A stretch of 64,000 bases of DNA from Anaeromyxobacter dehalogenans 2CP-C (GCF_000013385.1 NC_007760.1:3694001-3758000), one strand, 5' to 3'. Numbered from the stretch's first letter, positions 13,362 through 60,998 are shown. The notes: a model not told the origin generated them from the letters alone. Translations and numbers: made by a program.

Positions 13362-13612
13362 GACTGCGCTCCCGCGCTGCCGACGGTAGTGCCCCGCGGC
13401 GGCGGAACGAGGTCGGGCTCGCGGCAGTACCACCGCCTCGGGAACCGGAGCACCCCGTCCGCCGCCGCCACGATCACGCGCCCGGTCCGGTGGCCACCGC
13501 GGATCTCGTGGTCCTCCAGCGTCACGAGGACCCCGCGCGAACGATCGAGGTACGTACCTCCGACCTTCAGGATCCTCCGCTTCGACTCCGTCTGCTTTCT
13601 CACCGCGCTCAT
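13358..13612 (-). CDS. Small protein of unknown function between coupling protein and primase
   Basis: An 84-aa protein that I do not recognise. It is basic at the N-terminus and then has a run of predicted beta strands with GGTYLDRSRGVLVTLEDHEI and GRVIVAAADGVLRFPRRW. This pattern could be a small barrel of the SH3 or KOW sort. It overlaps both neighbours by 4 nt (ATGA at each end), so it is a true member of the tra operon. Role in transfer or priming is only suggested by position. Confidence 0.75.
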   Translation of the reverse strand: MSAVRKQTESKRRILKVGGTYLDRSRGVLVTLEDHEIRGGHRTGRVIVAAADGVLRFPRRWYCREPDLVPPPRGTTVGSAGAQS

Positions 13613-15447
13613 GCCGACCTCCGATCCTCCTCGCGCGCGCCGTGCGCGGCGCGCCCGATGAACCGCTCGTACAGGTGGAGCCCGGCGACCGTCGCCTCCG
13701 GGCGGGACACCAGCGGGTAGTCCGCCCGGAGCGGCGGGAGCTGCCCGTAGCAGACCGGGTGGAGCGTCGAGTCCGTGTAGAGGAAGCCCTGCCCGCAGCT
13801 GGCGAGGTTCTTGATGCGGTTCGGGTGGAGCTTGTAGGACTCGACGAGCCGCGTGGACGCCTCGCGCGTCGCGAGCGAGGTGAAGAGCGGGCCCGCCTCG
13901 ACGCGGACCGTCTTCACGACCTCCTGGTGCGTCCCGATGCTCTTCGCGACCATCTCGCAGAGCGCCGGGTTGTCCTGGTTCAGCACGTCCTTGATGCGCG
14001 TGTTGTCCCAGACCGAGTTCGCGAACTCGCGGCTCACGAGCTCGAGGTCGGCGAGCGACTGGTGGGCGACCGTGAACTGGAGGTTCGCGTCGCGGAGCTG
14101 GTTCAGCGAGTCGACGAAGGAGAGGTCGGCGAAGCGGCCGAACTCGTCCACCACGACGCTGAACGGTCGCTGGTTCCGGGTCGCCCGGAACACCTGCCGC
14201 AGGCTCCCCTCCTGCTGAACGTCCATCAGGAAGACCTTCCCGAGCGACGGCGCCTGGATCTTGAAGAGGTTCGAGGGGAGCTGGACGTACACGATGAGGT
14301 TCTGCTCGAGGACGTCGCGCATCACGATGTCGGGCGCGTAGGCGTTTACGAGCGGCGCCTGGAACTTGTCGACCGCGCCGACGAGGCCCGAGAGCGCCTT
14401 GTGGATCTCGTGCCCGAGCCGGTCGATCTGCGAGACGACCTCGCGCGCGGCCTCCTGGTCGCGCGAGCGCGCGAGGCAGTGGTCGAGGGCGCCGCGCCAG
14501 GCAGGGTTCTTGTTCCCGACGCCCTTCAGGCAGACCGCGAGGTCGCGCATCGTGAAGGGCTGGCCGAAGCCGCGCGCGTCCACCATCCCGTGCAGCAGCC
14601 GGCACAGGTTCGTGAACATGATCTGCGCCTGCGTGTTGTAGTAGCGGTTGTCGCCGAGTGGCAGGACGGAGAAGACCCGCTCCGCCACCGCGACCGGATC
14701 GCCGCCGTCGCTCTCCGGCGTGCACGGCTCGACCCAGACCATGTTGTACGTGTGGCTCGGCAGCGCCGGCTGGTTCCACGCCGGCAGCGCGAAGACGCGG
14801 AGGTCGGCCTCGCGCCCGGCGACCTGGGCGATGCCCTTAATCGTGGCGACCTCCTCGTCGCTCCCCTTCCCCGAGACAACGACACAGCCCTTCCCGTCGA
14901 GCACGTCCTGCAGGACCTGCGGCCAGAGGACGCTCTCGGTCTTGCCCGAGCCCGTCTTCCCGAGGACGTGACGGTGCGTCGTGCGCTGGCGCTCGGAGAG
15001 GTAGACGGGCTTCCAGCGCCAGCCCAGCGCGGTCCGGCGCGGAGAGAGGCCGACGAAGGTGTGGCCAGCCGGCCGGCGCTGGATCTCCGCGAGGACGTCC
15101 ACGGCGCGAGCGGGGAACCGTTGGTCGTCGGCGCGGAAGTGCGTGCCGGCGATGCGTGCGATCACGTGGTTCCGCCAGACGAGGAGGCCGGTCCGGTACG
15201 CAAGCAGGACCCCGGCCACCCCCGCAACGCCCAGGACCAGCGCGGTGAGCTCGTGCGCGAGCACCCAGGAGCGGAGCGGCAACCATCGACCCGCCGCCTC
15301 GGCTAGTAGCTCGCGCACGAATGGCACCGGGACCTCGACGCCGTCGCGCTGCCAGCGAAGCGCCAGTTCCGCGCCCACTGCGAGCGTGATGACCGCGACC
15401 GCCACGCGTGCGGGGAACGAGACGGAGGGAGCATCGGCCTGCTGCAT
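13609..15447 (-). CDS. Type IV coupling protein (VirD4/TraG/TraD family)
   Basis: A 612-aa coupling ATPase, the inner-membrane motor that links DNA or protein substrate to the type IV secretion channel. Two hydrophobic segments lie in the N-terminal 95 residues (VAVAVITLAVGAELAL and LTALVLGVAGVAGVLLAY). The Walker A motif GKTGSGKTE is near residue 166 and the Walker B, SVVVDEFGRFAD, near residue 432. It is followed by a Gln-rich helicase-like segment, QFTVAHQSLADLE. It is the first gene of a minus-strand operon whose upstream region carries the shared TGACATACAA element. The partner T4SS operon lies 9 kb away, separated by cargo. Confidence 0.93.
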   Translation of the reverse strand: MQQADAPSVSFPARVAVAVITLAVGAELALRWQRDGVEVPVPFVRELLAEAAGRWLPLRSWVLAHELTALVLGVAGVAGVLLAYRTGLLVWRNHVIARIAGTHFRADDQRFPARAVDVLAEIQRRPAGHTFVGLSPRRTALGWRWKPVYLSERQRTTHRHVLGKTGSGKTESVLWPQVLQDVLDGKGCVVVSGKGSDEEVATIKGIAQVAGREADLRVFALPAWNQPALPSHTYNMVWVEPCTPESDGGDPVAVAERVFSVLPLGDNRYYNTQAQIMFTNLCRLLHGMVDARGFGQPFTMRDLAVCLKGVGNKNPAWRGALDHCLARSRDQEAAREVVSQIDRLGHEIHKALSGLVGAVDKFQAPLVNAYAPDIVMRDVLEQNLIVYVQLPSNLFKIQAPSLGKVFLMDVQQEGSLRQVFRATRNQRPFSVVVDEFGRFADLSFVDSLNQLRDANLQFTVAHQSLADLELVSREFANSVWDNTRIKDVLNQDNPALCEMVAKSIGTHQEVVKTVRVEAGPLFTSLATREASTRLVESYKLHPNRIKNLASCGQGFLYTDSTLHPVCYGQLPPLRADYPLVSRPEATVAGLHLYERFIGRAAHGAREEDRRSA

Positions 15448-31285: not shown

Positions 31286-33871
31286 TCACGCCGCGGGGCG
31301 GCTCGGCCGATCGCGGCCGACGACACCGTGGGGGTACCTGGCCGCGAGCTCCTGGAGCAGCGCGAGCCGGTCGTAGGACGGGTTCCTCGCGACGGCGCGC
31401 GCGAGGAAGTCCTGGTCTTCCTTGTCGGTAGTCAGGATCCAGTAGGCGAGCGGGTGGAGCGCGAGCCTCACCACCGCGGTGCGCGCGCCGTACATGAGCA
31501 GGAAGTCGCTGAACCAGCCCGGCTTAAGCTCCAGTCCGGCGAACGCGGCGGCGGCGCGCGGCGAGAGGCCGAAGTGCTCGACCACCGCGCGGTGCTTCCC
31601 CGCGAGGTGGCGGAGGAAGATCCGGATGGTGCTGTTCCCGACGATCGCCTCGCGTCCGACCCGCGACCCCAGGAAGTCGTTCAGGTTCTGCGAGATCATC
31701 CACATCGCGGTGTCGTACTTCCGCATCTTCCGGTAGCAGCCGCCGAGGAACCGCTCCGTCGCGTCGTCGGCGCCGAGGTACTCGTGCCCCTCGTCGACCT
31801 CGACGAGCGTGCGCGTCCTGCGCGCCATCGCCCGGTTCGTGATCGCCTGGATGATGGTCGCCATCGCGACGGACTTCGTGCCGGCGTTCTCGGAGACCTT
31901 CGCGAGATCGAACGTGAGGAGCGGCGCGTCGAACCGGAGCTGCGATGGGCGGTTCAAGAAGTCGGCGTAGATGCCGGTGCAGAAGATGGCGAGGCGTCGG
32001 ACGAGGTCATCCGCGATCGCCCGATCGTCCGGGTGCGTCCACTCGTGGGTGGCGAGCCCCTCCGAGAACTGGCCGACGAGCGGTGGCTCCTCCGGGCGTT
32101 GCCGGAAGCGGGTCTCGTAGGTCCAGCGGATCGCGCGGGCGACCACGTCCCGCTCCACCTTGTCGAAGGGAGGCCGCGTCCGGTCGGCGACGCACACCTC
32201 GAGGAACTGGACGACGTGCTCGATGTCCTCGTTCGAGATCTCGGTCCCTTCGCCGGCGAGCTGGGAATAGGAGAGGAACGGTGAGATGGACGTCGAGAGG
32301 TCGACCGGGATGTGCACCCCGCCGAGGAGCTCCGTGAGCGGCTTCCAGGACTTCCCGTTGTCGATGAGGATCGCCTCGACGCCAGCCGCCCGCGCGTCGA
32401 GCGTGAGCGCGCCGAGGGTCACGCTCTTTCCGGAGCCCGTGTCCGCGACCACGATCCCGTGGTGCGCGTTCACGCCGCTCGACTTGTCGAAGAGGTCGAA
32501 CCGGAACGCCTCGCCGGTGGGCGTGAGGAGCACGCTCGAGGCCCGGGCGCTGCCGCGCCAGGGCGCGAAGACGGGCAGGAAGTCGGCCGCGTTCCGGCTC
32601 GTGCAGCCCTTCTTCCGGAGCTGGTACCGGCACGCGCCCGGGAGCATCGAGAGCAGGGCCGGGACCTGCGTGACCTCCTCGACGAGGAGCTCGGAGTTGC
32701 CGGCGGCGGCGAAGGCGCTCCGCGACGCCTCGGTGGCCGCCTCGAGCTCGTCCAGCGAGCCCGCCTCGAGGAGGAGCGACACCGAGAGCGCGACGACCTT
32801 CGTGCTCATCGCCGCGAGTTCCTCGAAGAGCCCTCGGATCGCCTCCTGCTTGGCCTGGTCCGCCTCCTCCGACTCGACGGTGCGGCGATCCAGAAAGGGC
32901 ATCACGGCGCGGAGGCTCTCGACCAAGGCGTGCTGGTTGTTGAGGAGCCACCGCGCCGTCTTCTGCGTGCGTACGTGGACGGTGACCGCGAGCGTGTACG
33001 AGAGGGGGCCGCGCGCCGTCGCGAGCCCGAGGAGCGGCTCGCAGGCGAAGTAGTCCGTGCCGCCCTCCGGCAGCACCTTCAGCGTCGCGACCCGCCGCCA
33101 GATCCCGCCCTGCCGGAGGTGGCCGCGCCCGTCCTCGACATCCTCGTGGGCGAGCTGCTCCGCCTCCGTGTACTCGGCGAGGTGGAGCCCCTCACGCTTC
33201 ACTACCTGGTCGGACCACAGCGTGTCGCGGAGGCGGACGCGGGGAGGCGCGGCGCCCGCGCGAGCCCGCGTGGGGTTCAGGAGCTCGTAGTGCAGTCGCC
33301 AGACGTCCTCGAGATCGAGCTCCCGGGACGGGATGCCCGCCGCGCCGAGGCGCGCGGCGACGCGGTCGCGGAGCTGCGCGAGCCGGCCGAGGCGCCGCGC
33401 GTGCTCTGCGCCGGTGAGCTGGGTTGCCTTCCCGAAGAGGAGCTTTCCTCCCAGGAGCCCGCGCCCGATGCCCTGCTTCAGCCCGCCCGGACCGGAGAAG
33501 AAGACGTACACGCGCGCGCGACGGAGCCGCTGCGTACGGAGCCAGCGCGCGCGAGACGCGACGTACTCGCGCAGCGCCGCGGCGTCCGTTGCGGCGGCGA
33601 TGCCTTCGTACTCGCGGACGTCCTCCTCGGCGCCCTCCTCGATCCGGTGGATGAAGTGGAGGGTCGTCTCGTCGTCGAGGGAGGCGACAAGGCTCCGGAG
33701 CGCCTCGCCGATGCCGGCGATCTGATCCTCGCCGGCGAACCGGACGTCGAGCGTGCCGAGCTCGAGCCCGCCGACGTAGTCGAGCGCGGGCGTGACGAGC
33801 GCGGTCACGCCGCCCTCGCGCAGGGTTCGCCAGAGCGGGATGAGCCCCGCGAGCGGGCTCTCGCGGATCAC
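31286..33871 (-). CDS. virB4: VirB4/TrbE-type T4SS ATPase
   Basis: An 861-aa ATPase that powers pilus and channel assembly. The start is a GTG at 33871, with GGGGG 6 nt upstream and overlapping the VirB3-like stop (GTGA). The open frame upstream is antisense only. The N-terminal half is the VirB4 accessory domain. Walker A, VADTGSGKSVTLG, lies near residue 479, Walker B, TLVEVDEGHEYL, near residue 692, and MWMISQNLNDFL follows as the next conserved motif. Size and motif spacing are standard for the family. It is the clearest marker that this is a complete conjugation-type T4SS. Confidence 0.94.
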   Translation of the reverse strand: MIRESPLAGLIPLWRTLREGGVTALVTPALDYVGGLELGTLDVRFAGEDQIAGIGEALRSLVASLDDETTLHFIHRIEEGAEEDVREYEGIAAATDAAALREYVASRARWLRTQRLRRARVYVFFSGPGGLKQGIGRGLLGGKLLFGKATQLTGAEHARRLGRLAQLRDRVAARLGAAGIPSRELDLEDVWRLHYELLNPTRARAGAAPPRVRLRDTLWSDQVVKREGLHLAEYTEAEQLAHEDVEDGRGHLRQGGIWRRVATLKVLPEGGTDYFACEPLLGLATARGPLSYTLAVTVHVRTQKTARWLLNNQHALVESLRAVMPFLDRRTVESEEADQAKQEAIRGLFEELAAMSTKVVALSVSLLLEAGSLDELEAATEASRSAFAAAGNSELLVEEVTQVPALLSMLPGACRYQLRKKGCTSRNAADFLPVFAPWRGSARASSVLLTPTGEAFRFDLFDKSSGVNAHHGIVVADTGSGKSVTLGALTLDARAAGVEAILIDNGKSWKPLTELLGGVHIPVDLSTSISPFLSYSQLAGEGTEISNEDIEHVVQFLEVCVADRTRPPFDKVERDVVARAIRWTYETRFRQRPEEPPLVGQFSEGLATHEWTHPDDRAIADDLVRRLAIFCTGIYADFLNRPSQLRFDAPLLTFDLAKVSENAGTKSVAMATIIQAITNRAMARRTRTLVEVDEGHEYLGADDATERFLGGCYRKMRKYDTAMWMISQNLNDFLGSRVGREAIVGNSTIRIFLRHLAGKHRAVVEHFGLSPRAAAAFAGLELKPGWFSDFLLMYGARTAVVRLALHPLAYWILTTDKEDQDFLARAVARNPSYDRLALLQELAARYPHGVVGRDRPSRPAA

Positions 33872-39633: not shown

Positions 39634-40245
39634 CTACCGCCACCGGCCGGCCTGAACGAATGAGAAGTACCCCCCGGTCGCGACGATGACGTGGTCTCTC
39701 GCCACCACTCCGACCAGCTCGGCCGCGGCTGTCAGCCGCTCCGTCAGATCCGCGTCCTCGACACTCGCGGATGGATCGCCGGATGGGTGATTGTGCACGA
39801 AGACCACGCCGTGCGCGCCCTCGCGCACGGCGACGCGGAGCGTATCCCGCGGGCTGACCGGGCACTGTGAGACCGAGCCCTGCGCCACGCGCTCGGTCCG
39901 GATGAGCCGCCCGCGCACGTCGAGCAACACGACGTGGAACTCCTCCACCGGCGCGTGCGCGAGCGGCCGCATCAGCTCGTAGACGCGACCTGGGTCGAGG
40001 CACCGCTCGCCGCGCTTCGGCGGCGCCCAGGCTCCCCGGCGGCCGAGCTCGAACGCCGCGGCGAGCGCCGCCGCCCGCGCCTCGCCGACCCCGAGCCGGC
40101 GAAGCTCGGCGACGGTGAGCCACGCGAGCTCGGGTACGGGGCGGCTGGCGGCGCCGCCGGCGCCGAGCATGGTGAGAAGCTCGACATCGGAGAGCGCCCG
40201 CGGTCCGTCCATCAGGAGCCGCTCACGGAGCAGGTCCTTGGCCAT
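39634..40245 (-). CDS. radC: RadC family protein (JAMM/MPN+ domain)
   Basis: A 203-aa RadC-type protein. The N-terminal half has a helix-hairpin-helix region (ALSDVELLTMLGAGG; ELRRLGVGEARAAALAAAFE). The C-terminal half is a JAMM metal-binding domain with the motif HNHPSGDPSASVEDADLT. RadC proteins are frequent on mobile elements and in anti-restriction regions; their cell role is unclear. It lies 11 nt after the zinc-ribbon gene and is the last gene of the hairpin-rich block. Confidence 0.92.
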   Translation of the reverse strand: MAKDLLRERLLMDGPRALSDVELLTMLGAGGAASRPVPELAWLTVAELRRLGVGEARAAALAAAFELGRRGAWAPPKRGERCLDPGRVYELMRPLAHAPVEEFHVVLLDVRGRLIRTERVAQGSVSQCPVSPRDTLRVAVREGAHGVVFVHNHPSGDPSASVEDADLTERLTAAAELVGVVARDHVIVATGGYFSFVQAGRWR

Positions 40246-40256
40246 GGCGGCCTCCC

Positions 40257-40739
40257 CTACGCCTGCGCCCGGGGCGCGCCGCGGCGGATGGTGGGCGGCC
40301 GCGCGACGACCTTCGCCGGCACGGGCGGGAGGTTCAGCGAGGCCGGCACCGGAACCGGCGCGCCCTTCGGCCACCACCAGAGCTGGGCGACCGGGTCCCA
40401 CCGCCACCCGGCCCGCTTCAGCTCCGTCCGAATCTCCTCCGGCGGCTTCCGGTCGAACCGGAGCGCCGGCTGGGGTCCGTGGTGCCGGGTCTTCTCGACG
40501 TGGAACGCCGGCTCGGCCTTCCCCCGCTCGGCCTCGGCGACCAGCCGCAGGTCGAGGAGCGCCGCTCCGCAGTACGTGCAGCACTCCTCCTGGACCGTCG
40601 TGTCCGCGGCGTACAGCGGAAGGATCGGATGGCCGTTGTAGTCGGTGTCCGCCGGCCCGAGTCCCGTGGTGGACCGGAGGCACGCGGGGCAGAAGACCTC
40701 GTCGTTCGCGCTGTAACCGAGGACCGTGAAGGGCTTCAT
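40257..40739 (-). CDS. Zinc-ribbon protein of unknown function
   Basis: A 160-aa protein starting at the ATG at 40739, set by AGGAG 8 nt upstream. Two Cys pairs (FCPACLRS and CCTYCGAAL) form a probable zinc ribbon in the first 65 residues. The C-terminal half contains RFDRKPPEEIRTELKRAGWR, then WDPVAQLWWW. This 'aGWRWdp--w-W' signature recurs in plasmid-borne helicase and primase accessory proteins. Its leader carries the first copy of the repeated GGCACCGCGCCGCC hairpin. Confidence 0.78.
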   Translation of the reverse strand: MKPFTVLGYSANDEVFCPACLRSTTGLGPADTDYNGHPILPLYAADTTVQEECCTYCGAALLDLRLVAEAERGKAEPAFHVEKTRHHGPQPALRFDRKPPEEIRTELKRAGWRWDPVAQLWWWPKGAPVPVPASLNLPPVPAKVVARPPTIRRGAPRAQA

Positions 40740-40764
40740 CGTGGCAGCTCCTGTGAGTGGGGGC

Positions 40765-40804
40765 GGCACCGCGCCGCCTCGCCCGACACGGGCGGGGCGG
40801 TGCC
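40765..40804 (-). repeat. Leader hairpin repeat, copy 1 (before the zinc-ribbon gene)
   Basis: Arms GGCACCGCGCCGCC (40765-40778) and GGCGGGGCGGTGCC (40791-40804) pair with one mismatch around a 12-nt loop that can itself pair (CGCCCG/CGGGCG). It ends about 25 nt before the zinc-ribbon start codon, just ahead of the AGGAG site. The remainder of the gap to 41008 has further short GC palindromes (for example GACGCC/GGCGTC near 40910). Confidence 0.8.
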
Positions 40805-41008
40805 GGCCCCGCGGCGACGGGCGGCGGCGTTGCCGAAGCGGCGGGCGTGTCGCCCGGCGTGACGGCGAGCGCGCCTCTTGCGCGCGCCGGCGCGACGGGC
40901 GCTCCCGACGCCCGAGGCGTCGTTAGCCGCCGACCGGCGTCGCTCCTGGGAGCTGCCGCGGTGGAGCCCGGCGGCGGCAGATGCGACCCAGGTCGCCTGG
41001 GTGCGAGC

Positions 41009-41230
41009 TCAGGATCGGCGCGCGATCTCGCCCGATGCCCGGAGCGTCCCGCCCAGCCACACCGAGGGAAGCGGCGTCCCGCTGGAGACCTTCCGGTGCA
41101 GCTCGATCGTCACGGAGGCGAGGCGCAGGACGTCCTCGACCCCGATCTCCTGACCGTCCGGCTGCGGCTGCAGAATGCGTCGCGCGAGTGAGAGCTGCTC
41201 CTGCAGGAGGTTCGTCGCGATCCGGTTCAT
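41009..41230 (-). CDS. Small helical protein of unknown function
   Basis: A 73-aa protein starting at the ATG at 41230 after a clear AAAGGAG site. It is amphipathic and helical (NRIATNLLQEQLSLARRILQ, VEDVLRLASVTIELHRKVSS). No known family is recognised. It lies between two hairpin repeats and so has its own leader, like its neighbours. The consistent gene layout argues that it is real. Confidence 0.65.
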   Translation of the reverse strand: MNRIATNLLQEQLSLARRILQPQPDGQEIGVEDVLRLASVTIELHRKVSSGTPLPSVWLGGTLRASGEIARRS

Positions 41231-41255
41231 CGTTTCGGCTCCTTTAGCTGGACGC

Positions 41256-41293
41256 GGCACCGCGCCGCTCACCGGGAGCGGCGGCGCGGTGCC
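41256..41293 (-). repeat. Leader hairpin repeat, copy 2
   Basis: Arms GGCACCGCGCCGC (41256-41268) and GCGGCGCGGTGCC (41281-41293) pair perfectly over 13 bp. The arm nearest the gene ends 25 nt before the start codon at 41230, just upstream of the AAAGGAG site. Confidence 0.85.
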
Positions 41294-41345
41294 GACCGTC
41301 GAGGACTGGAGGAGCCGCCCGTCGCCGGGCGGCTCCGGCCGCGGT

Positions 41346-41513
41346 TCACGCGTCCGCGGGCTCGTCGTCGTCGAAGAGCGTCGCGCGCGTGAGGTGCAGC
41401 TCGGGCGGGTGGTAGTCGCCGCACAGCTCGCAGTGGACGAGCTCGAGCTGCAGGTCGCCGAACTCCTGCTCGATCTCGAGGTGCAGCGGGTCGGTCTGGA
41501 TGAGGCTGGCCAT
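41346..41513 (-). CDS. Small acidic protein with CxxC pair
   Basis: A 55-aa acidic protein starting at the ATG at 41513 (AGGGAG about 9 nt upstream). It has one Cys-x-x-Cys pair followed by a His (HCELCGDYH), as in a half zinc ribbon or a dimeric zinc knuckle, and a strongly acidic tail (LFDDDEPADA). I do not recognise it. It has its own hairpin leader and lies between the 73-aa protein and the VWA gene. Confidence 0.6.
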   Translation of the reverse strand: MASLIQTDPLHLEIEQEFGDLQLELVHCELCGDYHPPELHLTRATLFDDDEPADA

Positions 41514-41538
41514 GTGAACGCGTCTCCCTGTGGTGGGC

Positions 41539-41577
41539 GGCACCGCGCCGCCTCGCCCGGCACGGGCGGCGCGGTGC
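41539..41577 (-). repeat. Leader hairpin repeat, copy 3
   Basis: Arms GGCACCGCGCCGCC (41539-41552) and GGCGGCGCGGTGC (41565-41577) pair over 13 bp around the same TCGCCCGGCACG-type loop as copy 1. It lies 25 nt upstream of the 55-aa gene start. No other gene is seen in 41514-41748. Confidence 0.85.
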
Positions 41578-41748
41578 AGCCCGCGAGCGCGCAGGGGTTC
41601 GCCGTGGCCGGCGATCCGCCCTGCCGGCCCGTGACGGCGAGGCTGTTCGCGAGCTGGCGCGGGCCGTGCCCGGCGGAGCGGCGGCGGTCGTAAGGCGAAC
41701 CCCCGCGCGCGCCTGGAGACGCGCTGGCCAGCCGGCGCCGCCCCGTCG

Positions 41749-43041
41749 CTACGCCGCGAACAGGGCGGTCGCGCTCGGGTCGTCGGCGGTCGAGAGGTCG
41801 GTGACCGCGTGGACCTCGTCGCACCACGGGACGAGCCACTCCCGCTCGACACCGATCCCGAGCCCGAGGATCGTGACGCCGAGCGCGGCGGCGCTCTCCC
41901 GAAACGCGCCCGCCTCGCTCGCGTCCGAGCCGCCGTCTGTGACGAGCACGAGGTCCGCCTTGCCGAGCGCGCCCGGGTGCGTCCGGATGATCTCGAGGCC
42001 GCGGCGCACCGCGGCCGCGATCTCGGTCCCTCCGCAGCAGGAGACGAAGAGCCCGTCCTCGGGGAGTGCCTCGGACGGCTTCACGACCGCCTCGAACTTC
42101 ACGCGCGCGTCGAAACCCAGCAGCGCGAACGTCCGTCGTTCGCGCTGCGCCTGGTCGAGGAGCGCGAGCGCGACCGCCGTTGCCCACACGTCCCGCGGCC
42201 CGTCCATCGAACCGCTCTTGTCGAGGAGGACCACGAGCGGCCCCTTCCCGAGGGTCGCCGTCCCCTCGAGCCGGTACTGGAGGGACCGGCCCTCGAGGAG
42301 AGCGCGCAGGAAGTCGAGCCGCAGGAGCCGGTGCGACAGCTTCGCGAGCTCCACCGGCAGCGCCCGGCCCAGGTCCGCGCCCTGCTCGACGTCGGTCACC
42401 TCGTCTGCGCCGTGCTTCACGCGGTGGCGGCGCTTCGCCGCCGCGATGCGCTTGAAGCGGCCGGCGAGGGCGGCGATGCGCCGGAGGCGCTCGTCGCCCT
42501 TGAGCCGCGCGGCGAGCGACCTCACCGCGCCCTGCTCCCGCGGCACGCCGTCCGCCGTGCCCGTTCCCGGGAGCAGTCCCCCTCTGAACGCGACGTGCGC
42601 GAGCCCCTCGGCCGCGTCGCGCAGCTCCGCGACCGCGCGCGCCGCCGCCGCGCACGCGGCGGCGAGCGGGCGCCGCAACGGATCCTTGCCGACGCCCGGC
42701 GCAGCCGGCGGCGGCTCGTCGGGCGGAGGCAGGTTCAGCTCGCGCACGATGGCCTCGACCGCCGCCGCGGAGGCCGCGGCGTCGCCGCGGCACTCCGCGG
42801 ACAGCCTCGCGAACGACGGCAGCGCGTCGCAGGTCGAGTGCACGCGCTCCGCCCACGGGCGGAGCGCGGCATTCACCCGGCTCGGGGCCAGCCGCTCGCC
42901 CTCGCCGGTGTAGAGCCGCTCGAACAGCTCGTCCTCGAGCCGCAGCTGCGGCGCGTCGCGCTCCTGCGCGCGCGGCATCTGGCGGTGTTCGCGGTGCAGC
43001 ATGAGGTGCCACCGCGAGACGTCGAACAGGAGACGTTTCAT
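41749..43041 (-). CDS. VWA-domain protein (ViaA/CoxE-like)
   Basis: A 430-aa protein with a C-terminal von Willebrand A domain. Its metal-ion site DKSGSMDG is near residue 272, followed by GGTEIAAAVRRGLEII and LVTDGGSDASEAG. The N-terminal 250 residues are helical. This architecture pairs with MoxR/RavA AAA+ ATPases, and such an ATPase gene lies 69 nt upstream of this start. Pairs of this kind act as chaperone-like complexes on metal or membrane targets; the target here is unknown. A strong GC hairpin lies before the GGAGG site. Confidence 0.88.
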   Translation of the reverse strand: MKRLLFDVSRWHLMLHREHRQMPRAQERDAPQLRLEDELFERLYTGEGERLAPSRVNAALRPWAERVHSTCDALPSFARLSAECRGDAAASAAAVEAIVRELNLPPPDEPPPAAPGVGKDPLRRPLAAACAAAARAVAELRDAAEGLAHVAFRGGLLPGTGTADGVPREQGAVRSLAARLKGDERLRRIAALAGRFKRIAAAKRRHRVKHGADEVTDVEQGADLGRALPVELAKLSHRLLRLDFLRALLEGRSLQYRLEGTATLGKGPLVVLLDKSGSMDGPRDVWATAVALALLDQAQRERRTFALLGFDARVKFEAVVKPSEALPEDGLFVSCCGGTEIAAAVRRGLEIIRTHPGALGKADLVLVTDGGSDASEAGAFRESAAALGVTILGLGIGVEREWLVPWCDEVHAVTDLSTADDPSATALFAA

Positions 43042-43060
43042 GTGACCTCCGGGTCCCGGC

Positions 43061-43104
43061 GGCCCGTCCGCGGCCGCCCGACAGGGCGGCGGCCGCGGCG
43101 GGCC
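43061..43104 (-). repeat. Unrelated GC-rich leader hairpin before the VWA gene
   Basis: GGCCCGTCCGCGGCCGCC and GGCGGCGGCCGCGGCGGGCC can pair over most of their length with a one-base bulge and a short loop. The sequence differs from the five-copy repeat but holds the same position, between the previous stop and the next ribosome-binding site. Confidence 0.65.
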
Positions 43105-43110
43105 CGCGCG

Positions 43111-44259
43111 TCAACGCGCGGACGCGAGCCCGAGCCCGGCGCTCACCGCCCGCGCCAGTTCGTAGTGGAGCTGCGCGATCTCCTGGTCCGCGTCCCCGAG
43201 CGCCGCCTTGGCGCGCGGACCGGCACCGCTCGTGAGCTCGCGGAGTTTCTGCTGCTGCGCCTTGAACTCCTCGAGCGCCTGCGCCGCCTGGGCGAGGTAG
43301 CTCTTCCGATCGGACGTCCGGAGCGCGGCGACCCGCGCGGCGGTCTCGCGCGCGGCGTCGAGGACCTCGGCGGCCTTGGCGCTCACCGGGTCCGCGAGCT
43401 GTCCGACGATCTGGGCGACCTTCGCGTGCTCCTTCGGCTCGCGCCAGAGCGCGTGCGTGAGGACGAGGAGGTCCTCCGGGGTGGTCGCGGCCTCTCCGGC
43501 GAGCCACGTCGCCGCCTGGACGACCTTGAGCGTCTTCTTCCAGCGACGGTCGGACGCGACGATGCCCTCGGCGCGGCAGCCGTCCCGGATCGCGATGAGC
43601 GCCTGGACGGTCTCGTCGGTGACCTTCACCCGCGCGGCGTCGCCCTGCGCCTGGCGGAGCTCGGGCATGGTCAGCGCGGAGGAGCAGGTCGGCTCCGGCG
43701 CGAGCAGGACGGCGCGGAAGCTGCTCGGCCGCAGGAGGTACTGCACGTCGAACCGGAGGAGGAACCGGTCGAAGAGCGCCTCGAGCTCCTTCCCGTCCGG
43801 CAGCTCGTTCGACGCGCCGAAGAGCGCGACGAGCGGCATCTGCATGGGCGACCCGTCGTTGTGGAAGAGCCGCTCGTTCATCGCCGTGAGGAGCGAATTC
43901 AGGATGGCCGAGTTCGCCTTGAAGACCTCGTCGACGAAGGCGAACTCCGCCTCGGGCAGCTTCCCCGCGGTGACGCGCTGGTAGTGGTCCTGCTCGAGGG
44001 CCTTCAGGCTGATCGGGCCGAACAGCTCCTCGGGCGTCGAGAACTTGGTGAGGAGCCGCTCAAAGTAGCTCCCGCCGAACGCCTGCGCGATCGCGCGGAC
44101 GAGGGCGCTCTTCGCCGTTCCCGGCGGCCCGAGGAGTAGGACGTGCTCGCCGGCGAGCACGGCGGCGAGGGCGCCTTCGATGACGTCGCGGCGCTCCGGG
44201 AAACGAGCGAGGAGCTCCGAACGAAGCTGCAGCAGCTTGGCATGTGCGGACGTGGTCAT
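43111..44259 (-). CDS. MoxR/RavA-type AAA+ ATPase
   Basis: A 382-aa AAA+ ATPase. Walker A, GPPGTAKS, is at residues 44-51 and Walker B, FAFVDEVFKAN, near residue 107. The surrounding stretches KFSTPEELFGPISLKALEQD and LNSLLTAMNERLFHNDG are typical of the RavA branch. The C-terminal 130 residues are helical and coiled-coil like. It is directly upstream of a VWA-protein gene, matching the RavA-ViaA pairing seen in many bacteria. It starts 15 nt after the previous gene without a hairpin leader. Confidence 0.92.
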   Translation of the reverse strand: MTTSAHAKLLQLRSELLARFPERRDVIEGALAAVLAGEHVLLLGPPGTAKSALVRAIAQAFGGSYFERLLTKFSTPEELFGPISLKALEQDHYQRVTAGKLPEAEFAFVDEVFKANSAILNSLLTAMNERLFHNDGSPMQMPLVALFGASNELPDGKELEALFDRFLLRFDVQYLLRPSSFRAVLLAPEPTCSSALTMPELRQAQGDAARVKVTDETVQALIAIRDGCRAEGIVASDRRWKKTLKVVQAATWLAGEAATTPEDLLVLTHALWREPKEHAKVAQIVGQLADPVSAKAAEVLDAARETAARVAALRTSDRKSYLAQAAQALEEFKAQQQKLRELTSGAGPRAKAALGDADQEIAQLHYELARAVSAGLGLASAR

Positions 44260-44274
44260 GGCGTTCTTCTCTCC

Positions 44275-45150
44275 TCACGCGGCCTTGGTCTGGAGGAGTC
44301 CCTCGACCTGGAGGGTCAGCTTGTTGAGCGCGGTCTCGAGGTCCTGGACCTGCACCTGCAGGACGGTGTGGTAGAGCCGGGCCTTCGCGCGGAGGCCCTC
44401 GAACGTCTCGAGCCGACGCGCGAGCGTGGACGCGCGCTCGGGCGGGTCCGAGAGGAAGCCCTCGATCTCGGCGCGGAGCGCCGTGATCTCCTCGTCGAGC
44501 GAGGCGCGCGCAGCGTCGCCGAGCGCCGCCGTCGCCTCGGGCGACGCGTGGATCGGGACGACGTCGAGGCGCGAGGCGCCGATGTTCGACACGGCGTCGC
44601 GGAGGCGTCGGAGCGTCTCCGCGTACGGCGCCGGGACCCAGTAGACGCCGCCGTGATCGCGCAGCGTCACGGCGGCGCACGACGCGAGCGTCTTCACGAG
44701 CGCACGCCGGACGTCGTCCGGCGTGTGCGTGTTGAGCAGCCGGTCGTAGGCGGCGGACACGGCCACGACGACGTCGTGGCCGGGCCGGTCGGACTCGAGC
44801 TTCACGGGGCGCGCGCGGTCGAGCCGGATCCGCGCCGTCTGCGCGAGGGAGACGTTCCCGTCGCCGTCGCGGGTCTCGGCGACGACGGCGAAGACGATCT
44901 CGCCGTCGTCCTCCTTCCCGAGCCGGAGCAGGTGATCGTGCTGCCCGACCTGCGCCTCGCGGACTGCGGTCCGGAGCGCCTTCTCGGGCGTGGGCGGCTC
45001 GGGCAGGAGGTTCTCGGCGAGCCCGGCGTTCGCCCAGACGGTCTCGAGCGTGCTGCGGGTAACCCTCGCGTCAGCGAGCGTCCACCAGAGGAGATCGCCG
45101 ACGTGCTTCCCGCCGGTGTGGGTGTAGGAACGGATGAGCTCCACGGACAT
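44275..45150 (-). CDS. Unknown protein upstream of the RavA-like ATPase
   Basis: A 291-aa protein starting at the ATG at 45150 with GGGAG upstream. It opens with LIRSYTHTGGKHVGDLLWWT and then LADARVTRSTLETVWANAG. A mixed alpha/beta middle follows (HDVVVAVSAAYDRLLNTHTP; GGVYWVPAPYAETLRRLRD), with a long coiled coil at the C-terminus. The pattern resembles conserved proteins found beside MoxR/VWA genes on mobile elements, but I cannot assign a family. It has hairpin copy 4 in its leader. Confidence 0.75.
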   Translation of the reverse strand: MSVELIRSYTHTGGKHVGDLLWWTLADARVTRSTLETVWANAGLAENLLPEPPTPEKALRTAVREAQVGQHDHLLRLGKEDDGEIVFAVVAETRDGDGNVSLAQTARIRLDRARPVKLESDRPGHDVVVAVSAAYDRLLNTHTPDDVRRALVKTLASCAAVTLRDHGGVYWVPAPYAETLRRLRDAVSNIGASRLDVVPIHASPEATAALGDAARASLDEEITALRAEIEGFLSDPPERASTLARRLETFEGLRAKARLYHTVLQVQVQDLETALNKLTLQVEGLLQTKAA

Positions 45151-45179
45151 GCTGGACTCCCTGTTCGAAGTGAGGAGGC

Positions 45180-45216
45180 GGCACCGCGCCGCCCCGCCCA
45201 GCCGGGCGGCGCGGTG
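45180..45216 (-). repeat. Leader hairpin repeat, copy 4
   Basis: Arms GGCACCGCGCCGCC (45180-45193) and GGCGGCGCGGTG (45205-45216) pair over 12 bp. It lies 29 nt before the start codon at 45150. The rest of the 209-nt gap up to the parB stop is GC-rich without a gene; a second GC hairpin (CCCCCGGGGCTCC / GGAGCCCCGGGG) sits near 45257-45290. Confidence 0.8.
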
Positions 45217-45359
45217 ACGGCTCGCGACCCGAGGCGGCGCTGTCGGGGGAGAACCCCCGGGGCTCCGAGCAACCTGGAGCCCCGGGGGGCGGTGAGCCCG
45301 ACACCACAGGGAGAGGCGGCGGGCTTTTCCTCGCGTTCCGGCCCGACGGCCGGGACGCG

Positions 45360-47057
45360 TCAATTACCGGGCGGCGTCTTCTTCGACTTGCGCGCGCCGC
45401 GCTCTGCGCGGCGCTGCGCGAGCTCGTCCGCGGTTGCCTTCTCGACCGCGCCGATGTCGACCGCGTACGCAGCGGCGGCGGCGGTCAGCCGGTCCGAGTA
45501 CCGCGAGGACCAGGCGAAGTACGCACCGCGGCCGACCGCGAGCTCGAGGACGAGGGCGCGCAGCGCCCCGCCGTCGAGCTCCCTCGCGTGCGCCGTCAGA
45601 GCCGCCTCCGGAGAGAAGCCCTTCTCGCGCTCGAGCCCGCGCCGCTTCACGGCGTCCGCGACGGCGTCGTGGTAGCCGCCGTGGACCATCGCGTCGAACA
45701 CGAGCCGCGCGAAGGTCGAGTCGTCCGGCGGCCGCGCCTGCGCGGCCGCGACGACCGCCGAGAGGATGTTCGCGATCGTGGCGCGGCGCAGCTCCGCGGC
45801 GGCGCGCGCCGCCGCCGGGTCGGCGGGCGGCGCCCTCGGTGCGGGCGCCTCGCCGTCCTCGGCGTCCGGGTCGTCGTCCTGGGTGCTCACTCCTGAGTCG
45901 CGCCGCCCCACGAACTCCACTCCGGCCGCGGCGAGCGCGGCGAGGGCCTCCGCCTTGCCCACGAGGGCGCGCGGCGTGCCTCCCGCATCCGTCGCGAGCG
46001 TCGGGGTTGGGCAGAGATCGCCGAGCAGGCGCCGCAAGGTCCGCCGCTCCGAGTCGTCGAAGCAGACTGCGTCCAGCTCCACGTAGTTGCTGTTCCAGGG
46101 GAGCTGGCGGCCGCCGTGGAACACCGCGTTCGACTGCTGCTCGGTCAGGACGGTGCCGCCCTTCGCCCGGACCTCGCTCGCGAGCCGCTCGTGGTGCGCG
46201 GCGACCTTCTTCCGGAAGCAGACGAGGTCGGTGCACGTGTCCGCCGCGGTGTCGTCCGAGAAGAGCCGGGGTTGGTTGCCGGTGCGCTTCGGGCACTTCG
46301 TGCACGCGCCGGCCTCGGGCACGAGCTTCGCGTCGTCCGTCGAGAACTGGGCGCGGTCGAGCCGCGTCAGGTACCGCTGCTCGACCAGGTACGCGAGGTC
46401 GTCTGCCGGGAACGGCTCGCCCTCCTCCAGATCCTCGAGCTCCTTCCGCAGCTCCGACAGCGCCTCGTCCTGAAGGGCGGGAGGAACCGCCCTCGCCACG
46501 AGGAACGCGGTGGTGGTCGTGAGCTCGCCTTTCCAGAAGGCATCCCGCATCGCGGGCCCGAGCGCCGTGAGCTTCAGGCGCGAGTAGACATACTGCGGCG
46601 ACCGGCCCACGAGCTTGGCCAGCGTGTCCGCGGTGTGGAGCGGCCGGCCGCGGCCGTCCTTCATCGCGAGCAGCGCCTCGTACGCCTCGGCCTCCTCGAC
46701 CGGGTGCGGGTCCTCGCGGCAGGCGTTCTCGACGATCCGGAGCTCGTGCGCCTCCTCGTCGGTGAGATCCTCGACCGTGGCCGGCACCTCCTTCAGGCCC
46801 GCCAGCTTCGCCGCCCGGTAGCGGCGCTCGCCGTAGACGATCTCGAACCGCGAGCCCTTCGGCCGGACCTTGATCGGCTGTTGAATGCCGTGCTCGCGAA
46901 CCGACGCGACCAGCTCGTCGATGTTGCGCGCCGTCCGGTTCCGCGGCGACGGATCGATGTCGTCGATCGGGACGAGCCGGACTGGAACCGGCTCGAGGCC
47001 CGCTGGCCGCGGCTTCACCGCGGGCTTCGTCTTCTTCGCTGTGGCACTCGCCTTCAC
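45360..47057 (-). CDS. ParB-like protein with an internal zinc-finger region
   Basis: A 565-aa ParB/Spo0J-family protein. The N-terminal CTPase/ParB domain has VPIDDIDPSPRNRTARNIDE and YGERRYRAAKLAGLKEVPA, followed by the helix-turn-helix (HTADTLAKLVGRSPQYVYSR). After residue 240 a Cys cluster (CTKCPKRTG, then TCTDLVCFRKKVAAH) suggests a zinc-binding insert. The C-terminal 170 residues are helical and unlike chromosomal ParB. The start is a GTG at 47057, 7 nt after AGGAGG. It has no parA next to it, unlike the second ParB at 53216. It may be a regulator or nucleoid-type protein of the element rather than a partition protein. Confidence 0.87.
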   Translation of the reverse strand: MKASATAKKTKPAVKPRPAGLEPVPVRLVPIDDIDPSPRNRTARNIDELVASVREHGIQQPIKVRPKGSRFEIVYGERRYRAAKLAGLKEVPATVEDLTDEEAHELRIVENACREDPHPVEEAEAYEALLAMKDGRGRPLHTADTLAKLVGRSPQYVYSRLKLTALGPAMRDAFWKGELTTTTAFLVARAVPPALQDEALSELRKELEDLEEGEPFPADDLAYLVEQRYLTRLDRAQFSTDDAKLVPEAGACTKCPKRTGNQPRLFSDDTAADTCTDLVCFRKKVAAHHERLASEVRAKGGTVLTEQQSNAVFHGGRQLPWNSNYVELDAVCFDDSERRTLRRLLGDLCPTPTLATDAGGTPRALVGKAEALAALAAAGVEFVGRRDSGVSTQDDDPDAEDGEAPAPRAPPADPAAARAAAELRRATIANILSAVVAAAQARPPDDSTFARLVFDAMVHGGYHDAVADAVKRRGLEREKGFSPEAALTAHARELDGGALRALVLELAVGRGAYFAWSSRYSDRLTAAAAAYAVDIGAVEKATADELAQRRAERGARKSKKTPPGN

Positions 47058-47078
47058 GGGCGACCTCCTGTGATGGGC

Positions 47079-47116
47079 GGCACCGCGCCGCCTCGTCCAG
47101 AGGGCGGCGCGGTGCC
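47079..47116 (-). repeat. Leader hairpin repeat, copy 5 (before the zinc-containing parB)
   Basis: Arms GGCACCGCGCCGCC (47079-47092) and GGCGGCGCGGTGCC (47103-47116) pair perfectly over 14 bp with a 10-nt loop. It lies 21 nt upstream of the GTG start at 47057, just before AGGAGG, exactly as in copies 1-4. Confidence 0.88.
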
Positions 47117-47126
47117 GGCCGCAGCG

Positions 47127-47426
47127 CTAAGCCGCCTGCGCCAGCGGGTCCTCCCCGGCGATTTCGCGCTCGGACCAGAACTCGCCCGGGTCCGGCAGGG
47201 ACAGGGCCACCAACGCCGCCATCTCGAGCGCCTCCTCCCTGCGGTCCCACTCGATGAAGCAGGCGCGGTGGACGCGTCCGATGTCGCCGCCGGCATCGAC
47301 GACGTCGCCGGCGTTCTCGCGGTCGCAGAAGCAGCACCGCTTCGCCCCCACCCGGCGGTGTCTCGCAGGGGCGACATGCTGCTCCGGTTCGGTGACTACG
47401 GGACGGGCAAGGCTCGAATCGGACAT
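47127..47426 (-). CDS. Small zinc-finger protein
   Basis: A 99-aa protein starting at the ATG at 47426 with GAGGA about 8 nt upstream; an ATG at 47450 is possible. The motif CCFCDRENAGDVVDAGGDIG, then RVHRACFIEWDRR, gives a Cys-Cys-His-Cys zinc site. The acidic C-terminus follows. It is the first gene of the minus-strand block and is preceded by a perfect 10-bp hairpin at 47451-47481. Function unknown. Confidence 0.65.
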   Translation of the reverse strand: MSDSSLARPVVTEPEQHVAPARHRRVGAKRCCFCDRENAGDVVDAGGDIGRVHRACFIEWDRREEALEMAALVALSLPDPGEFWSEREIAGEDPLAQAA

Positions 47427-47450
47427 GGCGGGGTCCTCGTCGGCGGGCAT

Positions 47451-47481
47451 CCGGCCGCTCTCACCGACGTGGAGCGGCCGG
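47451..47481 (-). repeat. Leader hairpin before the small zinc-finger gene
   Basis: CCGGCCGCTC (47451-47460) and GAGCGGCCGG (47472-47481) pair perfectly with an 11-nt loop. The sequence differs from the five-copy repeat but holds the equivalent upstream position. Confidence 0.65.
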
Positions 47482-47512
47482 TGCCGCCGGACGGCGGCGC
47501 CTGGGTACGGTT

Positions 47513-47883
47513 CTCAGGCGGACCGCGCGCTGCGCCGACGGCCTCTCGTCGGCGCGCATGCGTGGTCCCGCCTCGGCACGGCTCTCCTTCGACTCGCTCG
47601 CCCCGCCCTGCCCGTCCTCAGGCGGACCGCGCGCTGCGCCGACCGTCTCTCGTCGGCGCGCATGCGTGGTCCCGCCTCGGCACCGCCCTCCTTCGACTCG
47701 CTCGCCCCGCCCTGCCCGTCCTCAGGCGGACCGCGCGCTGCGCCGACCGTCTCTCGTCGGCGCGCATGCGTGGTCCCGCCTCGGCACCGCTCGCCTTCGA
47801 CTCGCGGGCCCCGCCCTGCCCGTCCTCAGGCGGACCGCGCGCTGCGCCGACTGTCTCTCGTCGGCGCGCATGCGTGGTCCCGC
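47513..47883. repeat. 104-bp tandem repeat array (3 full units and a 59-bp partial)
   Basis: Units begin at 47513, 47617, 47721 and 47825, each with CTCAGGCGGACCGCGCGCTG. Every unit contains a stem GCGCCGAC/GTCGGCGC around a 7-8-nt loop, extendable outward to GGACC/GGTCC as a long imperfect hairpin. The units differ at only a few bases. The period, 104, is not a multiple of three, so the array cannot encode a repeated peptide. It lies in non-coding DNA upstream of the zinc-finger and parB genes. Centromere, origin or structured RNA are all possible. Confidence 0.85.
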
Positions 47884-48230: not shown

Positions 48231-48342
48231 AGCATGCCCGCGGACTCACCCCGCGTTGACTGGTTCCGTTCCTTCCCGTTCTCGTTTTCCTTCTCTATGC
48301 CTCTATCCCCACACTCCCACCTCTCCTTCTCCCCTGTACCCA

Positions 48343-48373
48343 TTTGCTCCATTTTGAACCACGTGGTTCAAGA
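48343..48373. repeat. 31-bp direct repeat containing an 18-bp palindrome, copy 1
   Basis: The palindrome TTGAACCACGTGGTTCAA (48354-48371) is perfect and sits inside a 31-bp word repeated exactly at 48627-48657, 284 bp away in the same orientation. Stretches that follow both copies (GCCCGGC) also match. The two copies flank a 19-bp inverted repeat and 12-bp direct repeats. Confidence 0.85.
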
Positions 48374-48422
48374 ACTGCCCGGCCCCGCCACCAGCCCATC
48401 GAAGAAAGACTCAGGGTGACAG

Positions 48423-48468
48423 CAGCCCGACCCCTCACTCCGGTGGTTGGGAGTGAGGGGTCGGGCTG
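48423..48468. repeat. 19-bp perfect inverted repeat (hairpin)
   Basis: Arms CAGCCCGACCCCTCACTCC (48423-48441) and its exact complement (48450-48468) surround an 8-nt loop, GGTGGTTG. There is no T-run on either side, so it is not a textbook terminator. Position between the two 31-bp repeats and next to iteron-like repeats suggests a replication, transfer or recombination site. Confidence 0.85.
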
Positions 48469-48552
48469 ATGGCACCCCGCACCTCGCGACGAACGCCACT
48501 CGCAGGCGGCGGGGCCGGGCCGCCGAGATCTCGCGCGCTTACCGTCGCCAAA

Positions 48553-48593
48553 CCTGATCCCAATCCTGATCCCAACCCTGATCCCAATCCTGC
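48553..48593. repeat. Three 12-bp iteron-like direct repeats
   Basis: CCTGATCCCAAT, CCTGATCCCAAC and CCTGATCCCAAT follow each other without gaps, then a partial CCTG. Plasmid origins and oriT regions often carry such repeats. The plus-strand translation (DPNP repeats) is not part of a credible gene. Confidence 0.75.
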
Positions 48594-48626
48594 GGACTCC
48601 AGGACACACCCCCCGGGAACACCCCG

Positions 48627-48657
48627 TTTGCTCCATTTTGAACCACGTGGTTCAAGA
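48627..48657. repeat. 31-bp direct repeat containing an 18-bp palindrome, copy 2
   Basis: Identical to 48343-48373; the palindrome occupies 48638-48655. See that entry for the arrangement. Beyond the repeats, 48236-48771 holds no gene that I can support. Confidence 0.85.
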
Positions 48658-48771
48658 GGCGCCCGGCGCTCTTCCCGTGGCAGTCCGCGGCGGGCATGAA
48701 GAAGCCGGACGGGTACCGCAGATCATTCCGCGGCGCGTCCAGCTAAGTCGCGACCGTGCATTCTGTCGCCT

Positions 48772-52884: not shown

Positions 52885-53215
52885 CCCCACCCCCTCAGGC
52901 CACTCGGCCGCTCCTCGACTCGGAATGTTGCCGAGTGGACCGAGGCTCGACGGCGCGAATCGTTCATCGATGTAGCGCTCATTCCCGGGCCCCATCCGCG
53001 GCAGAACCACTTCACCACACGAACGATCCCACGTCGGCCTGACAGGGCGAGATTGCTGGCGACTCCCACAACAGGGCCGCCTCACGCAGCGGGAGAACGG
53101 ACCTCCTCCCTTCCCCTTTTGGCCCGTCGTCCGCCCGGTAACAGGAAGCCGGACGGGCCGCGAGGTCAACCGCGGCCACCGTCCGGCGAACGACGAACGG
53201 GCCTGTGAGCACCCT
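52885..53215. other. 331-nt gap between gajA and parB
   Basis: No gene is supported here. It should contain the Gabija promoter, but I found no convincing hexamer pair. Complementary GGCCCGTC and GACGGGCC words lie near 53120 and 53153 and could form a terminator-like stem for parB, without a T-run. Confidence 0.4.
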
Positions 53216-60419: not shown

Positions 60420-60998
60420 GTGCCGGGGACCGCGATAAAACCGAGCTGGGACAAGCTGTTCGCTACGGCCTCGGGCCAGGACGGCCTCTTCACGACCGAA
60501 CAAGCCGCCGAGGCGGGTTACTACCATCAGCTCCTCAAGCGGTACGTCGAGTTCGGCCGCGTGAGGCGGGTGCGCCGCGGGATTTACCGCCTCGTTCACT
60601 ATCCAGCCGGCGAGCACGAGGAGCTCGCCGAAATCTGGCTCTGGTCGAAGCAGGCCGGGGTCTTCTCGCACGAGACGGCGCTCTCGCTGTACGAGCTCTC
60701 CGACGTACTCCCGAAGCGCGTCCACCTCACTGTCCCGGCAGACTGGCGGCGGAGGCGCCTGAAGGTTCCCCGCGGAGTGGTGCTGCACCACGCGACAGTG
60801 CGCGCCGACGAACGATCGTGGTTCGGCGCGGTACCCGTGACCGAGCCGGGCCGAACCCTCCTCGACTGTGCGATGACGCACCTCTCCCCGGAGCTGCTCG
60901 CCCAAGCATTCCAGCAGGCCCGGTCCCGGGGGCTCGTCTCGCCGGATGGCCTCGCGGAGATCTCGCAGGCCGCCGGGTTGCGTGAGGTCCCAGGATGA
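60420..60998 (+). CDS. abiEi: AbiEi-type antitoxin/transcription regulator
   Basis: A 192-aa protein of the AbiEi antitoxin family. The N-terminal winged helix is DGLFTTEQAAEAGYYHQLLK, then RRVRRGIYRL. The C-terminal domain has VFSHETALSLYELSDVLPKR and VPVTEPGRTLLDCAM. AbiEi neutralises the AbiEii toxin without a direct complex (type IV toxin-antitoxin) and represses its promoter. The start is a GTG at 60420 and the stop overlaps abiEii by 4 nt (ATGA). Confidence 0.88.
   Translation: MPGTAIKPSWDKLFATASGQDGLFTTEQAAEAGYYHQLLKRYVEFGRVRRVRRGIYRLVHYPAGEHEELAEIWLWSKQAGVFSHETALSLYELSDVLPKRVHLTVPADWRRRRLKVPRGVVLHHATVRADERSWFGAVPVTEPGRTLLDCAMTHLSPELLAQAFQQARSRGLVSPDGLAEISQAAGLREVPG

Follow-up and report, generated by a model that had tools for sequence, protein, structure and literature searches.

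The closest described systems to the element reported here are Frpo1 and Frpo2 of the F plasmid and ssi of ColIb-P9, repeated foldable elements that stand before leading-region genes, near ssb and parB-like genes (PMC9849209, PMC11541004). Frpo1/2 are repeated stem-loops required for the early expression of leading genes (PMC9849209). Early expression from the entering single-stranded DNA (ssDNA) has been demonstrated in enterobacterial plasmids, and elsewhere it is predicted through similarity to Frpo or through -10/-35 boxes. Here we analyze a stretch of 64,000 nt of the soil bacterium Anaeromyxobacter dehalogenans 2CP-C (hereafter the window, positions 3,694,001-3,758,000 of a single contig of 5,013,479 bases), in which a family of hairpins precedes successive genes of one block in a conjugative element. 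We tentatively favour the view that this hairpin forms the shared part of an element for expression in the leading region, which belongs to a family of conjugative elements of the Anaeromyxobacteraceae and acts as folded ssDNA.

As in Frpo and ssi, the foldable element is repeated before genes of this kind, the transferred strand is the template in three relatives of the MOBF type, and a stable stem-loop is predicted in that strand. Unlike in Frpo and ssi, the stems are short, very G+C-rich and devoid of -10/-35 boxes, and there is one hairpin per gene, not per operon, abutting the ribosome-binding site. Lacking promoter boxes, the element does not qualify as an Frpo, but it may function in the same way; we regard it as comparable in role, transcription from the single strand being here a prediction.

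The original prediction described five hairpins, at 40765, 41256, 41539, 45180 and 47079, and all five 5' arms lie at these positions. They are all on the minus strand, 14-32 nt ahead of an ATG or GTG. The hairpins of the block, with their scores against a covariance model and the open reading frames (ORFs; lengths in amino acids, aa) that follow them, are:

47440..47489, minus strand: diverged member of the hairpin family, preceding the 99-aa ORF (ATG at 47426); 32.5 bits, E 0.005
47075..47120, minus strand: hairpin before the ParB-like gene (GTG at 47057); 60.9 bits
45176..45222, minus strand: hairpin before the DUF6744 gene (ATG at 45150); 65.2 bits
43053..43107, minus strand: hairpin in the equivalent place ahead of the VWA gene (ATG at 43041) but with another sequence; found in 4 genomes, unmatched by the model
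41535..41582, minus strand: hairpin before the 55-aa CxxC ORF (ATG at 41513); 68.2 bits
41255..41297, minus strand: hairpin before the 74-aa ORF (ATG at 41229); 56.1 bits
40764..40808, minus strand: hairpin before the 160-aa ORF (ATG at 40739); 64.3 bits

The hairpins before 43041 and 47426 had both been taken as unrelated to the others. The former indeed goes unmatched by the model, whereas the latter turns out to be a diverged member of the family. Both arms are exact 14-mers at 47079 only, and the other hairpins are off by 1-3 bases (GGCACCGCGCCGCT at 41256, a 3' arm GGCGGGGCGGTGCC at 40765, endings GCAG at 41539 and GACG at 45180); shared features are a CCGC/GCGG core and a 3' bulge. Among 190 genes with an upstream gap of at least 60 nt, only 0-11 equal or better the upstream folding energies of the seven hairpin-bearing starts, while those of the hairpin-less MoxR and RadC genes are ordinary.

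The full hairpin pattern has no match elsewhere in the 5,013,479-base genome (control pattern, 0). The covariance model R1 gave E values of 1.9e-10 to 6e-8 for the five hairpins and 0.005 for the one before 47426; these six gene-strand matches, all inside the block, are the only ones in the genome at 0.005 or better, and nothing else on that strand falls below 0.02. Weak matches at 2334622, 3297644 and 1133419 have no convincing start codon after them and look like chance. A simple arm pattern with two mismatches was uninformative (1139/1141 genome matches against about 900 for the control).

Covariance-model searches, with a model built from 34 copies, identified 41 further copies in nine related elements. 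The strong matches in Anaeromyxobacteraceae lie at the DUF6744 locus of ten genomes, with a single block per genome. A. terrae, A. soli and A. oryzisoli are among the named relatives that have this locus. All 41 further sense matches end on the ATG or GTG of a same-strand ORF, a result partly built in because the model includes the start codon. The ORFs that follow are recognisable as ssb (PF00436, 1.1e-33), parB, radC, DUF6744, moxR, orf55, orf74, orf160 and a 61-aa ORF; ssb copies outside the block have no hairpin. Genes that follow closely on another one, such as moxR and radC in the window, also go without, and they carry a hairpin where the gap is larger (moxR in locus L070, radC in L069-L072). 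The distance to the downstream start is fixed, with a standard deviation of 4.2 nt, whereas for the distance to the upstream stop the value is 72 nt. Orthologous copies hold their position at 67-95% protein identity, with compensatory changes. Double changes occur in 13 of the 21 stem pairs (111 cells versus 42 in shuffled alignments, and far fewer in slid structures) when antisense matches of the palindrome are counted too, and in 10 pairs (38 cells versus 14) in the sense copies alone. The CCGC/GCGG core is invariant or nearly so across 78 distinct rows. The arms thus stay complementary, as had been proposed, and the proposal of a common element in fixed position, making each gene a separate expression module, is borne out by the start-codon ends and the covariation. 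Neither of the two sequence outcomes named beforehand as counting against it, copies scattered over the genome and stems that do not covary, was observed.

At the distant DUF6744 loci L073-L082 the family is absent, and a few genes have unrelated hairpins at a similar place. Plasmid and phage collections yielded DUF6744 relatives that are only about 24% identical, and viral contigs had none of the hairpin patterns. Four model matches in genome G017 (L140, L154) belong to a different dispersed palindrome, GTTTGGCATCGCGCCTCC..GGAGGCGCGATGCCAAAC, whose near-identical copies are scattered in that genome.

Which strand folds better points away from known RNAs. In the RNase P and SRP RNAs taken as controls from these same genomes, the sense strand folds better (by -3.0 and -7.4 kcal/mol per 100 nt). 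For our elements it is the template strand, by +3.5 for the hairpins, +5.8 for the long leaders of the 41513 type (8/8) and +7.0 for those of the 40739 type (4/4). With DNA parameters and a correction for composition, the template remains better in 38 of 51 hairpins and in all leaders of both types (8/8 and 4/4); with RNA parameters and the same correction the counts are 31/51, 4/8 and 3/4. Stem mismatches on the sense strand are A-C rather than G-T (19:7 distinct contexts), and within the stems G-U was no commoner than A-C. Hence, the hairpins show neither of the two marks of selection on the mRNA strand, a better-folding sense strand and a preference for G-U. It is this behaviour of the template strand, unlike that of the control RNAs, that makes us favour an ssDNA expression element.

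The placement of the block is the other line of evidence. At L069, L070 and L071, the block lies 2-13 kb from the motif GCAC(N7)GTGCGTATGGTCT/GTGACCGTTAAGGACC, read on the minus strand, upstream of a small ribbon-helix-helix (RHH)-like ORF and TrwB (PF10412, 6.9e-98), with TrwC (PF08751, 1.2e-56) next in L070. The RHH-like ORF was assigned by eye and has no Pfam match. The intergenic stretch around the motif is nearly invariant among the three loci, and the motif matches the nic region of R388, GCACCGAAAGGTGCGTATTGTCT/ATAGCCCAGATTTAAGGA (PMC4814116). The sites are:

L070, 16599-16622: R388-like nic site
L069, 15014-15037: R388-like nic site
L071, 2793-2816: R388-like nic site

Given this match, the transferred strand is expected to start at the motif and to run into the block, for whose genes it would be the template, the arrangement of F-type leading regions (PMC11541004, PMC9849209). 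At the three loci the block thus has the position of a leading region, as in Frpo and ssi. The layout, with the RHH-like ORF, TrwB and TrwC downstream of a nic-like site that shows the same arrangement of hairpin and nic, resembles the DNA-transfer region of R388 (oriT-trwA-trwB-trwC, where oriT is the origin of transfer). Differences are the chromosomal location in G013 and G023, the latter of which also has a tyrosine integrase, and the hairpin block on the leading side. The complete genome G023 has, in this order, type IV secretion system (T4SS; minus strand), block (plus strand), parB2, intergenic stretch, RHH-like ORF, TrwB, TrwC and integrase. More generally, a VirB4/TraG P-loop protein lies about 8-35 kb from the block on the same contig in most other genomes searched; it is on a separate contig in G016, and none was found in G034 and G022.

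Before two genes of the window, the predicted fold goes beyond what had been proposed: the hairpin is not the whole structure but one branch of a fold of about 200 nt. In the 41513 leader, this comprises a hairpin of about 130 nt, the family hairpin and an outer stem with the Shine-Dalgarno (SD) sequence in its 3' arm. The additional parts are:

41715..41725, minus strand: distal arm AGCGCGTCTCC, pairing with the SD region of the 41513 gene, with compensatory changes among orthologues
41583..41714, minus strand: second, large hairpin in the 41513 leader, with conservation across 8 genomes
41517..41527, minus strand: proximal arm GGAGACGCGTT, holding the SD sequence of the 41513 gene
40949..40957, minus strand: distal arm GGCAGCTCC, pairing with the SD region of the 40739 gene
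40809..40948, minus strand: large second hairpin of the 40739 leader
40743..40751, minus strand: proximal arm GGAGCTGCC, holding the SD sequence of the 40739 gene

The outer arms of the 41513 type covary (GACCGTCTCCC/GGGAGACGGTC, GTCCGTCTCC/GGAGACGGAC and CGCGTCTCC/GGAGACGCG), the stem being weaker in L068. The 40739 leader shares this plan in four genomes, and in the window the 41229 gene has a short version of the larger fold. With the full leader, the predicted unpaired probability of the SD sequence falls from 0.24-0.53 to 0.00-0.21 in both leader families. The linker between hairpin and start is rich in A/C and poor in T (7% T versus 12%), and the start region is more open than in ordinary genes (0.51 versus 0.40). 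We discarded the idea that the hairpin simply insulates the ribosome-binding site, as the gain is small (0.506, against 0.477 with shuffled upstream sequence).

If the ssDNA reading holds, events in the recipient would run as follows. The element would enter as ssDNA, and the transferred (template) strand would fold at each copy into a stem of 17-21 bp that has the invariant CCGC/GCGG core and the 3' bulge, at some genes within the closed fold of about 200 nt. The fold would recruit RNA polymerase, or a factor bringing it, and a short mRNA would start at or beside the hairpin, directly ahead of the ribosome-binding site. In this way the products of genes for establishment (ssb, parB, radC, DUF6744, MoxR/VWA and small ORFs) would be made before second-strand synthesis. 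In the integrated double-stranded form, long read-through transcripts would carry the full leader, which is predicted to sequester the SD sequence before the 41513 and 40739 genes. The fold is probably a device that switches on the first genes in the recipient, since the block enters the new cell first in related elements; transcription from single strands, recruitment and start site are what we infer.

Several points weigh against this reading. Frpo carries -10/-35 boxes, whereas these elements have none, and a normal promoter is longer than their stem of 17-21 bp. The direct contact with the ribosome-binding site and the pairing of the SD sequence itself look translational. After composition correction with RNA parameters, the template bias of the 41513-type leaders is gone (4/8), and the strand evidence as a whole is moderate because the compared sequences are related. 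Finally, we found no oriT in the window and identified no relaxase in its element, and the orientation of the block relative to the T4SS differs in G015, G016 and G020; it is therefore by inference that we regard the block as the leading region in these four elements.

The main rival is an mRNA-level element, translational or processing, which we consider a serious possibility if a somewhat doubtful one. The transcribed hairpin would be a protein-binding or RNase III-type cleavage site in the 5' leader, so that every cistron would have a separate 5' end; the SD sequence would be hidden in long leaders, and cutting or binding at the hairpin would free it. Phage T7 has intercistronic RNase III sites of this kind, irregular hairpins of about 20 bp that lie immediately upstream of the ribosome-binding sites in a series of genes, and our stems, about two turns long and placed before the next cistron, fit the description. 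They differ from the T7 sites in their strong sequence conservation, invariant core and better-folding template strand, and in the kind of element that carries them. Riboswitch-like translational switches sequester the SD sequence, as the distal arm is predicted to do in two leaders; unlike in such switches, the pairing occurs at some genes only, no conserved single-stranded core resembling a ligand pocket was seen, and a scan of the window against Rfam gave 0 matches above gathering thresholds. The fixed spacing to the start codon, the compensatory changes in the SD pairing, the loss of predicted SD accessibility with the full leader, and the composition and openness of the start region all speak for action on mRNA. 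Against it stand the sense strand that folds worse than the template, unlike known RNAs, the stems without G-U excess and the lack of an Rfam match. Of the originally proposed common RNA element, the common and selected element therefore stands and the requirement that it be RNA is not supported: strand folding and leading-region placement point to ssDNA at least as much as to RNA. A combined model is also possible, in which long transcripts are off and those begun or cut at the hairpin are on.

A double-stranded DNA operator, bound by a dimeric regulator such as the ParB-like protein of the element in the manner of KorB, would explain why inverted repeats stand at the starts of many genes in one regulon, and the block does encode a ParB-like HTH protein; however, half-sites are not evenly spaced from copy to copy, differences of several bases shifting the helical phase, double changes preserve complementarity instead of a fixed half-site, and the SD pairing is left unexplained, making this improbable. 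Terminators of the upstream genes are less probable still: strong GC-rich hairpins do stand between genes, but they lie 5-217 nt from the upstream stop versus 10-32 nt from the downstream start, and no T run follows them, so we rejected this reading on position. Another conserved hairpin, CCCCCGGGGCTCACGCCCCGGGGGTTTT, distinct from the family, is terminator-like, has a T run and does precede DUF6744 in L065 and L068 (near 45250-45290 in the window), between parB and the family hairpin, with no obvious promoter between. A dispersed palindromic repeat without a role in expression, like repetitive extragenic palindromes (REP) or miniature inverted-repeat transposable elements, could explain why copies share sequence beyond what pairing needs, yet we give it hardly any credence. 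With strong copies confined to one block per genome, start codons at their ends, covarying stems and position kept between orthologues, REP-type repeats are in the main refuted, in line with the original prediction. A sigma-70 promoter was rejected on a -10/-35 scan of the region, which gave 0 promoter-like matches, none being seen by eye in the stems.

Nearly all called genes of the window, from 47.4 kb down to 2 kb, are on the minus strand. They encode a VirB4/TraC ATPase, TraD, a TrbC-like pilin, a kinase-TrbI fusion, a DnaG primase and a Replic_Relax protein, conjugation and replication genes from which we conclude that the window carries an integrated conjugative element. The hairpin block comprises orf99, parB, DUF6744, moxR, VWA, orf55, orf74, orf160 and radC. 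The main genes are:

45360..47057, minus strand: ParB-like protein, 565 aa (PF02195, HTH_ParB)
44275..45150, minus strand: DUF6744 protein (4.5e-23)
43111..44259, minus strand: MoxR/RavA-like AAA ATPase, starting 16 nt past DUF6744, without hairpin
41749..43041, minus strand: VWA (CoxE/ViaA-like) protein
40257..40739, minus strand: 160-aa ORF, no family
39634..40245, minus strand: RadC-like protein (2.5e-34), close after the 160-aa ORF, without hairpin
31286..33871, minus strand: VirB4/TraC conjugation ATPase of the hairpin-bearing element
13609..15405, minus strand: TraD/TraG coupling protein

The fusion at 25122-27380 joins a Ser/Thr kinase domain to a TrbI/VirB10-like domain and adjoins a DUF2381 gene. 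The window also contains BREX brxC/brxB (2197-6218), a Gabija-like pair of UvrD helicase and OLD-like ATPase/TOPRIM protein (49073-53169) and an AbiE pair (60420-61894). ARAGORN called a tRNA-Pro at 40045-40129, inside radC, that is probably spurious. Just upstream of orf99, a 104-bp unit with an internal hairpin forms 3.6 tandem copies (47513-47883). Beyond it, at 48340-48660, lies a nested palindrome with the loop CCAACCAC and about -140 kcal/mol across 230 nt. L065-L068 and L078 conserve it close to the head of the block. It is flanked at 48354 and 48638 by identical 18-bp palindromes, TTGAACCACGTGGTTCAA, that are parS-like or replication-origin-like.

We see the element as a variant among the cis elements of leading regions, and there is a real chance that it represents a new class. 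Such a class, of box-less ssDNA gene-start elements present once per gene in conjugative elements of Myxococcota, active while single-stranded and translationally silent on double-stranded read-through, is in our view a reasonable possibility, short of probable. If it exists in these G+C-rich elements, searches based on similarity to Frpo or on -10/-35 boxes would miss whole lineages, and the hairpin would provide a sequence tag for finding leading-region genes for establishment and counter-defence. If the hairpins act on mRNA instead, they would represent an undescribed family of structured leaders common to a whole gene set.

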